This document shows, piece after piece, positions 27,732 to 32,165 of a DNA stretch of 64,000 bases. Position numbers and translations under genes: made by a program. Positions within the stretch are counted from its first letter, which is position 1. Each line of letters opens with the position of its first letter. The notes beneath the pieces were generated by a model. It was not told the origin of the DNA. It ran no database searches and saw only the letters and a program-made list of their open reading frames with translations. The stretch comes from Paludisphaera soli (GTDB taxonomy: Bacteria; Planctomycetota; Planctomycetia; Isosphaerales; Isosphaeraceae): assembly GCF_011064595.1 (NCBI RefSeq), contig NZ_JAALJI010000006.1, positions 124,001 to 188,000 on the forward strand, given 5' to 3'.

Positions 27732-27980
27732 ATGCTCGACGTCAGCCGCGACATCCAATCCCTGACCGACTTCAAGAAGAACACGCCGGAGTTCATCCGC
27801 CAGTTGAAGGAGACCGGCGAGCCGATCGTCCTGACGATCAACGGCAAGGCGGAGGTCGTCGTCCTGGACGCCGCCGCCTACCAGAAGCTCCGCGAGCAGG
27901 CCGAGGTCGCCCGGGTCTTCGACGGCGTCCGCCAGGGCCTCGCGATCCCCGGGGCCGCCCGCCCCGCCCCGCCCGCATGA
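27732..27980 (+). CDS. Phd/YefM-family antitoxin, apparently orphan
   Basis: This encodes 82 residues starting MLDVSRDIQSLTDFKKNTPEFI. It continues QLKETGEPIVLTINGKAEVVVLD and YQKL, the typical Phd/YefM fold that binds DNA at its N-terminus and neutralises a RelE/Doc-type toxin with its C-terminus. No toxin gene is present on either side: the next frame, overlapping at ATGA 27977, translates as Arg/Pro-rich sequence with no RelE or Fic motif. It may regulate a toxin encoded elsewhere or be a relic. It lies 62 bases after the GH140-like gene. Confidence 0.88.
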   Translation: MLDVSRDIQSLTDFKKNTPEFIRQLKETGEPIVLTINGKAEVVVLDAAAYQKLREQAEVARVFDGVRQGLAIPGAARPAPPA

Positions 27981-29587: not shown

Positions 29588-29773
29588 ATGACCACCCGGC
29601 GCTGGATGCTCGCCGTTGCGCTGACGGCGGCCGCGTTGGTTGCGTTGCAGATGATCGCCGTCCTCGTGTGGGATGCTCGGCAGAGGGCGGCGGACGAGCG
29701 ATGGATGGATCCGTATCTGAGGGCCGAAGACCAGCATGCGGAGGGCTATCGACTGATAGACGAGGGCCCATGA
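29588..29773 (+). CDS. Small membrane protein
   Basis: This encodes about 61 residues starting MTTRRWMLAVALTAAALVALQ. One N-terminal membrane helix is followed by a charged tail (DARQRAADERWMDPYLRAEDQ). Very short proteins starting MTTRRWML are common in planctomycetes; their function is unknown. An ATG at 29573 is also in frame. The stop overlaps the next start as ATGA (29770-29773), which supports the reading and suggests coupled translation. Confidence 0.65.
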   Translation: MTTRRWMLAVALTAAALVALQMIAVLVWDARQRAADERWMDPYLRAEDQHAEGYRLIDEGP

Positions 29774-30459
29774 ACTCCATCCGGCGACCAGTTCGTCCGG
29801 TGTCGCTCAGGCGGGTCCAGGCCTGGCTGGCCGGCGTGGTCGTGCTGCGGGTGGTCGCGAGCGTTGCGGCGAATTACCGCGCGTACATCCCGCCCGATTT
29901 TGGCTCCGAGTTCCTGCGCGGTCGAGAAGCCTATTTCTGGGGCGGGTATTCCTGGGCCTTCTACGTCCACATCGCGTCCGGGCCCGTCGCGCTGGTGCTG
30001 GGGCTGTTCCTGGTCGGCGAGTGGTCGCGGAAGCGGCTGCGGGCCTGGCATCGCCGCCTGGGCTGGGTCCAGGTGATGTGCGTGCTGGGGCTGGTGACCC
30101 CCAGCGGGCTGGCGATGGCCCGATACGCGGCGGCGGGGCCGGTCGCGGCGGTCGGGCTGGCGAGCCTGGCGGTCGCCACGGCGGCCTGCACCACGCTCGG
30201 CGCGCGGGCCGCGGCGCGGCGACGTTTCGCGGAGCATCGCCGGTGGATGTGGCGGAGCTACCTGCTCCTCGCCTCCGCCGTCGTGCTGCGGCTCCTCGGC
30301 GGCCTGGCGACGGTCCTCGGGATCGCCGCCCCGTGGTTCGACCCCTTGGCGAACTGGATGAGCTGGCTCCTGCCCCTCGCCGCGTTCGAGGTGTGCGAGC
30401 GGATCCGGCGGAGGTCGGGGACGATCGCGGCGGGCGCCCGGGCGGTCACAACTCGCTGA
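29770..30459 (+). CDS. DUF2306-family membrane protein
   Basis: This encodes 229 residues with about six predicted helices. The order FYVHIASGPVALVLGLF, AWHRRLGWVQVMC and RRFAEHRRWMWRSYLLL matches the DUF2306 family, in which conserved His residues in the helices suggest heme or metal binding; the function is unknown. The start overlaps the stop of the 61-residue membrane protein. Its 3' end overlaps the convergent DUF1559 gene by 14 bases. Confidence 0.82.
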   Translation: MNSIRRPVRPVSLRRVQAWLAGVVVLRVVASVAANYRAYIPPDFGSEFLRGREAYFWGGYSWAFYVHIASGPVALVLGLFLVGEWSRKRLRAWHRRLGWVQVMCVLGLVTPSGLAMARYAAAGPVAAVGLASLAVATAACTTLGARAAARRRFAEHRRWMWRSYLLLASAVVLRLLGGLATVLGIAAPWFDPLANWMSWLLPLAAFEVCERIRRRSGTIAAGARAVTTR

Positions 30460-31300
30460 GGTCCGCCTTCTCGCCTCCGGCGATCGTGATCAACGCCCGA
30501 CGTTGCTCCGGCGGCATGGTGGTCTTATAGAAATGGGCGCTGGCGTCGAGCAACGCCGCGTTCACGCCGCCGGGATGGGTGAGCTTGGACTCCGGGCCGA
30601 TCTTGCGGATCCGGGCCTCGTCCGCGTCGGCCGGGGCCATCCACGGGACGGCGTTTTCCTCGCCCGCCTCGATCACGAGGAGGGTGGAGGCGAGGCCGTC
30701 GGTGATCTCGGACGGCGGCCGGGCCCGATCGGGGGCCAGGGCCGATTCGACGCCGACGCTGGCCAGGTAGGTCGTCGCGTTCGGGAGGGCCTGGCTGCCG
30801 CTCGGACACTGGAAGACTGCAAGTGCCGTCTCCCCCGCCCTGGCATTGACCGGGTCGTCCCAGGGCTTCGACAGGTCGATCGAGTCGTAGAGCGATCCCT
30901 GTTGGAGATACGGCAGGATCAACGTCCGCCAACTGTGCAGCGGCCGCCCGTCCGGGCCCACCGTGTAGGCGGGGGGCAACGCCTGATGCTCGTCCTGGTA
31001 GGCGAGGATCGCCCTCGCGATCTGCTTCAGATTGTTGGTGCACTGGGCCCGCCTGGCCGCCTCTCTCCCCCCGCTGCGACTGAGCGGCAGTAGGAGGGCG
31101 ATCAGCAGCGCGATCACCGCCACGACCACCAGGAACTCGATCAGGGTGAAGCCGCGTCCCCCGGACGGCCTCCGCGTCGCGAGGGTGGGGGCGGGGGGGC
31201 GCACGCTGCGGGTCGACACGATCAGGGTGAAGCCGCGTCCCCCGGACGGCCTCCGCGTCGCGAGGGTGGGGGCGGGGGGGCGCACGCTGCGGGTCGACAT
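30446..31300 (-). CDS. DUF1559 prepilin-like protein with duplicated leader
   Basis: This encodes 284 residues. The prepilin motif GRGFTLIEFLVVVAVIALL starts the N-terminal helix, followed by ARRAQCTNNLKQIARAILAY and a DUF1559 body (PPAYTVGPDGRPLHSWRTLILPYL, later NAALLDASAHFYK). DUF1559 proteins are planctomycete type-IV-pilin-like secreted proteins of unknown role. The first 54 residues are two tandem copies of a 27-residue block (STRSVRPPAPTLATRRPSG then GRGFTLI), produced by an exact 81-bp DNA duplication, so the first leader is not followed by its helix. A start inside the second copy (GTG at 31219) would give a normal protein. Confidence 0.9.
   Translation of the reverse strand: MSTRSVRPPAPTLATRRPSGGRGFTLIVSTRSVRPPAPTLATRRPSGGRGFTLIEFLVVVAVIALLIALLLPLSRSGGREAARRAQCTNNLKQIARAILAYQDEHQALPPAYTVGPDGRPLHSWRTLILPYLQQGSLYDSIDLSKPWDDPVNARAGETALAVFQCPSGSQALPNATTYLASVGVESALAPDRARPPSEITDGLASTLLVIEAGEENAVPWMAPADADEARIRKIGPESKLTHPGGVNAALLDASAHFYKTTMPPEQRRALITIAGGEKADLSEL
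31138..31299. repeat. 81-bp perfect tandem repeat in DUF1559 leader
   Basis: Bases 31138-31218 and 31219-31299 are identical over 81 bp (27 codons), so the frame is kept. The repeat covers the start region and prepilin cleavage motif of the DUF1559 gene. The inner copy begins with GTG where the outer copy begins with ATG, because the start codon falls on the repeat boundary. Identity suggests a very recent event or an assembly artefact. Confidence 0.97.
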
Positions 31301-31358
31301 GAGGGGAACTCCGTTGTCTCGCGTCCGAGACGAGCGAGGAGCATGGCCTGACTCCAGG

Positions 31359-32165
31359 CTATCGCGGGGGGCGTGCCGGAGGAAGCGGGCGGGCCGGATA
31401 TAGGTCCTCGACGGCCGCGTCGTCGCCCCCGGCGATCGTCGTGAGCGCGCGACGGACCTCCAGGGGAGTCGTGGCCCTCAGGAAGCGAACGCCGCCGTCG
31501 AGGAAGGCGGCGTTCACGCTGCCGTTATGGGGAAGCTCGGGCTCCGCGCTGATCTTTGTAATCAGGGCCTCGGCCACGTCGTTCGGCGACATCCAGTGGA
31601 CGGCGTCCTCGTCGCCGGACTCGATAACCAGGAGCGTCGAGCCGTGGCCGTCGGTGATCTCGGAAAGGGGTCGGGCCCGGTCGGGGGCCAGGGCCGCATC
31701 GGGGCCGACGCTCGCCAGGTATCTCGTCGCGCCTTCCGCTCGGGACGCCTCCGGGCATCGGAAGATCGAGAGGCGAACGGCCCGCGCCTCGGCGTTGGCC
31801 GGGTCGTCCCAGGGCTTCGACAGGTCGTTCGAGCGGTAGACGTCGCCTTGATCGAGATGCGGCAGGATCAAGGTCCGCCAGCTGTGCAGCCGTCGGCCCG
31901 CCGGGTCCACGGTGTAGGCGGGCGGTAGGGCGCCGTGCTCGCCCTGGTAAGCGAGGATTGCCAGCGCGATGTTCTTGAGGTTGTTCTGGCACTGGGCCCG
32001 CCTCGCGGCCGGTCTCGCGCTCCGGGTGGCCGGCAGCAGCAGGGCGATCAAGAGGGCGATCACCGCCACGACCACCATAAGCTCGACCAGGCTGAAGCCG
32101 CGCCTCGCGGCCGGTCTCGGCGCGGCGGGCGTGGGGACGGGCTGCCGCTCGATGCGGACTGACAT
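31359..32165 (-). CDS. DUF1559 prepilin-like protein
   Basis: This encodes 268 residues. The prepilin motif RRGFSLVELMVVVAVIALL near residue 23 with the conserved Glu5 is followed by ARRAQCQNNLKNIALAILAY and a DUF1559 body with the same blocks as the neighbouring gene (WRTLILPHLDQGDVYRSNDL, EITDGHGSTLLVIESGDE, NAAFLDGGVRFLR). The two are clearly tandem paralogues. This copy has a normal single leader. The start at 32165 gives the standard short leader. The 58-base gap to its neighbour suggests one transcript. Confidence 0.93.
   Translation of the reverse strand: MSVRIERQPVPTPAAPRPAARRGFSLVELMVVVAVIALLIALLLPATRSARPAARRAQCQNNLKNIALAILAYQGEHGALPPAYTVDPAGRRLHSWRTLILPHLDQGDVYRSNDLSKPWDDPANAEARAVRLSIFRCPEASRAEGATRYLASVGPDAALAPDRARPLSEITDGHGSTLLVIESGDEDAVHWMSPNDVAEALITKISAEPELPHNGSVNAAFLDGGVRFLRATTPLEVRRALTTIAGGDDAAVEDLYPARPLPPARPPR

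Follow-up and report, generated by a model that had tools for sequence, protein, structure and literature searches.

The DUF1559 gene and its doubled leader

The window, a stretch of 64,000 nucleotides on contig C154 of the Paludisphaera soli draft genome (7.97 Mb, 197 contigs, 99.97% complete), contains a DUF1559 gene and a neighbouring paralogue on the same strand (Table 1). The encoded protein matched PF07596 across residues 78-170 with 124.4 bits (cut-off 23.3; 1.2e-35), a match spanning only the first ~100 of 268 positions. Translation of the open reading frame gave MSTRSVRPPAPTLATRRPSGGRGFTLI-VSTRSVRPPAPTLATRRPSGGRGFTLIEFLVVV..., in which the prepilin motif GFTLI occurs twice and, as the original prediction held, only the second occurrence runs into Glu5 and a hydrophobic helix. 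This second motif forms a class III signal (RG before the cut and FTLIEFLVVVAVIALLIALLLP after it), with a hydrophilic leader, a Gly and a hydrophobic stretch that includes Glu5, and it was recognised by both N_methyl PF07963 (22.7 bits, cut-off 21.2; 6.9e-5; residues 49-71) and the NCBIfam model for the prepilin cleavage/methylation domain, TIGR02532 (24.2 bits, cut-off 16.3). The first GFTLI is followed by VSTRSVRPP, lacks Glu5 and a hydrophobic stretch, does not qualify as a class III signal and was matched by neither model.

Table 1. Positions and strands of the features at the doubled leader, numbered from the first base of the window
Feature	Position	Strand	Details
DUF1559 / SBP_bac_10 (PF07596) gene	30446..31300	-	ORF list; 284 aa from ATG; Pfam
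ATG start	31298..31300	-	GGAG Shine-Dalgarno-like sequence 8 nt upstream; duplex energy -6.1 kcal/mol
Outer (5' in gene) copy of 81-bp unit	31219..31299	-	TG of ATG to ATCG; sequence, Tandem Repeats Finder
Leader copy 1 (= outer copy)	31219..31299	-	GFTLI, no helix after it
Inner GTG	31217..31219	-	made by the junction (G+TG); no Shine-Dalgarno; -1.7 kcal/mol
Inner copy of 81-bp unit = leader copy 2	31138..31218	-	GFTLI(E) abuts hydrophobic helix; sequence, Tandem Repeats Finder
G-quadruplex motif GGGTGGGGGCGGGGGGG, inner copy	31183..31199	+	
G-quadruplex motif, outer copy	31264..31280	+	
Neighbouring DUF1559 paralogue	31359..32165	-	single 22-residue leader; 66% identical past leader

The exact in-frame duplication described from the sequence was borne out, with two identical 81-bp blocks lying end to end and the match broken at 31137 and at 31300. 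Because the unit equals 27 codons, the reading frame is kept and the leader carries 27 extra residues. On the coding strand, the first base of the unit is the T of the start codon ATG and its last is the G opening the Glu5 codon, which leaves the Shine-Dalgarno sequence and the A of the ATG outside. The unit is 79% GC, each copy holds a G-quadruplex motif and a G7 run, and microhomology at the breakpoints is zero. An antisense ORF (31032-31403, +) is also present across the repeat region.

By its sequence signatures, this is still a constrained coding gene, with dN/dS of ~0.3-0.5 against relatives, a normal GC3 (0.91) and three departures at conserved columns (0-5 in relatives). Residue 253 is Ala, replacing a near-invariant Gly in the C-terminal H-X9-DG motif. 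An AlphaFold2 model built from 26 sequences had an overall pLDDT of 87.9 and comprised a low-confidence segment at residues 1-50 (55-67), a long helix at 53-105 of mostly high confidence with a break at 76-77, and a head containing short strands. The closest solved structures in the PDB were type IV pilins, matched weakly: PilA4, a T4 pilin, came first (VIA-align Z 5.0, rmsd 5.6, 119 aligned; Foldseek E 0.25), with lower VIA-align Z for other pilins, and a pilin fold is therefore not firmly claimed. At its 3' end the gene overlaps a DUF2306 membrane-protein gene (29773-30459, +) tail to tail by 14 bases, and a Phd/YefM-type antitoxin gene (27732-27977, +; PF02604, 44 bits) also lies in the window.

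Distribution and origin of the repeat

A whole-genome DNA search matched the repeat at one locus only. It was the longest exact tandem repeat with a period of 30-600 bp in the 2.43 Mb scanned (31% of the genome), and chance is excluded as the source of an 81-bp repeat. The gene shares its Pfam match, class III leader and prepilin N-methylation motif with the large paralogous DUF1559 family of Planctomycetes, which accounts for 123 matches in this genome, but differs in its doubled leader and in belonging to a branch that often lacks the cleavage motif. In all, 146 DUF1559 leaders were recovered by motif, 71 from this genome (70 besides this gene) and 75 from relatives in the Isosphaeraceae. 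In none of the other leaders sampled (70 here and 75 elsewhere) did the 100 residues upstream hold another GF[ST]L-like motif. The orthologues examined, in G002, G003 and other relatives, have a single leader, and the inner GTG falls on the start ATG in both the neighbouring paralogue and the G002 orthologue. Plasmid records likewise held no near match of the duplication. At the level of sequence, a duplication specific to this lineage or to this assembly is supported.

The neighbouring paralogue also has one leader, as translation and alignment confirmed. With a dS of 0.53, it and the window gene were the closest pair among six genes compared, and the two therefore look like products of a gene duplication in this lineage that came before that of the leader. 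G002 and G003 each have one family member within the 20 kb surrounding the matching gene, with flanking genes also matching in G002, while G005 and G028 carry tandem clusters of seven and six members.

The original prediction called the change recent, a description that suits two identical copies and orthologues with single leaders, although the event is not datable and the second copy may have arisen during assembly. Under that alternative the cell would hold one copy, and two pieces overlapping by 81 bp would have been joined end to end in a G-rich stretch that is difficult to sequence, which is unlikely but weighty enough to be the main competitor. The assembly is a draft in many contigs, the unit is GC-rich with quadruplex motifs and G runs, and zero microhomology with perfect identity is what an untrimmed overlap would be expected to leave; nor was a Ku gene found for end joining, a route of duplication that we rejected on this ground. 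With neither microhomology nor Ku, the usual duplication routes are not obvious, which leaves room for an assembly error and counts against a neutral duplication. However, no second exact 81-bp tandem occurred in the sequence scanned, so a systematic k-mer join is not indicated, and the 162-bp array lies within the span of a read pair. N runs were absent from the stretches read, 39 contig ends had no shared overlaps, and neither G-quadruplex motifs nor G runs were concentrated at contig ends. A systematic assembler artefact was accordingly discarded across the 31% of the genome and the 39 contig ends covered, which yielded no recurrent 81-bp joins, shared end overlaps or N gaps.

Start codon choice and leader processing

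The Shine-Dalgarno sequence lies upstream of the unit and was not duplicated, which favours translation from the ATG at 31300; from sequence context most of the protein should be the long form, with the inner GTG as a possible minor start only. Since the inner GTG falls on the ATG of the neighbouring paralogue and the G002 orthologue, the ancestral gene must have begun with an ATG and carried a leader of 22 residues. The GTG itself is a by-product of the junction rather than an evolved start, because the unit opens with the second base of the start codon. It had been suggested that translation from this codon would make the gene normal, and initiation mainly at 31219 would indeed yield the ancestral 257-residue protein and leave the outer copy untranslated. 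GTG is a legal start and its alignment is apt, yet the single Shine-Dalgarno sequence serves the other codon (-1.7 against -6.1 kcal/mol) and the nearest ATG starts in the genome mostly fall at -4 to -12 kcal/mol, making predominant use of the GTG improbable.

We consider it fairly probable, on these sequence features, that a single, recent in-frame duplication of 81 bp lengthened the leader of one DUF1559 pilin-like gene with essentially neutral effect. Translation would still begin at the ATG at 31300, and the 27 added residues, hydrophilic, Arg/Pro-rich and disordered, would lie on the cytoplasmic side, with helix insertion unchanged. The first GFTLI should escape the prepilin peptidase because no membrane helix follows it, and a cut between G49 and F50 would remove a leader of 49 residues instead of 22, leaving the mature protein unaltered. 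Two Peptidase_A24 (prepilin peptidase) genes scored above the cut-off in this genome. Gly-1 is the key residue driving prepilin cleavage, and the class III site beside the membrane helix, between G49 and F50, is intact. Prepilin leaders vary in length and are cut on the cytoplasmic side, near the membrane (review, PMC10191384), and in Geobacter PilA both isoforms, with leaders of 10 and 29 residues, are cleaved by PilD (PMC6201914). The leaders of type IVb pilins, at 15-30 residues, exceed those of type IVa and are likewise cut after a Gly before the hydrophobic helix (PMC6201914), but the leader described here is longer and its extension is an exact internal repeat.

This length also weighs against neutrality, as 49 residues exceeds the published examples consulted (up to 29-30). 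Measured from the nearest ATG, it is longer than that of any other of the 71 DUF1559 genes sampled from the genome, whose median is 10, and 22 residues is the commonest length in this branch. The proposal that the first leader copy delays or blocks processing was not upheld, given the variable length of prepilin leaders, the intact Gly-1 and the frequent lack of a site in branch relatives. It is very improbable that processing suffers from the doubled leader and that the gene is heading to inactivation: the exceptional leader length and the Ala in the H-X9-DG motif would fit such a course, but the frame is intact, dN/dS is below 1, GC3 is normal and the departures at conserved columns are within the range of the relatives.

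Likewise, the change had been described as possibly switchable, a suggestion that the geometry of the unit does not support. As the unit's length is divisible by three and both the Shine-Dalgarno sequence and the start lie outside it, a change in copy number would alter leader length only, and because the unit begins within the start codon, any promoter upstream is also outside. The repeat accordingly offers no switch of frame or promoter by copy number of the kind that defines phase-variable repeats. The closest parallel is PilA of Geobacter sulfurreducens, which likewise has two possible starts and one cleavage site, as related in PMC6201914 from Richter et al. 2012; in that account the arrangement occurs naturally in the major pilin, whereas the second start here derives from a duplication and lacks a Shine-Dalgarno sequence. 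As the two Geobacter isoforms have different roles (PMC6201914), a repeat selected as a tuner, giving two prepilin isoforms with distinct roles through two leader lengths (by copies or by starts), could be imagined. We regard this as barely credible for a repeat confined to one gene of one genome, with a weak inner start and no copy-number variation seen, and hold it only marginally less remote that the repeated leader governs how much or when the pilin-like protein is processed, through leader length and two starts. Most likely the duplication is a harmless accident, or an assembly error, rather than a switch.

The significance of the doubled leader is mostly slight. It is nevertheless a clean case in which a short duplication lengthens the cytoplasmic leader of a prepilin and creates an apparent second start codon, and, provided that the long form is produced and processed, it would offer a natural test of the leader length tolerated by a prepilin peptidase.

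Cleavage motifs across the DUF1559 branch

For the function of DUF1559 proteins, it may be of greater consequence that the cleavage site is so often missing. The class III motif was missing from 27 of 37 homologues in this branch (loci L009-L023 and L090-L100). With only 10 of the 37 retaining Gly/Ala-1 and Glu5 in the motif, processing does not seem to be a strict requirement here, as far as the sequences indicate. Most of the motif-less members retain the hydrophobic helix and a leader of ~22 residues, and the sequence pattern of the branch suggests that this pilin-like family is drifting towards membrane anchoring without cleavage. A DPEF-like motif was present in the leader of 13 of the 27 motif-less members.
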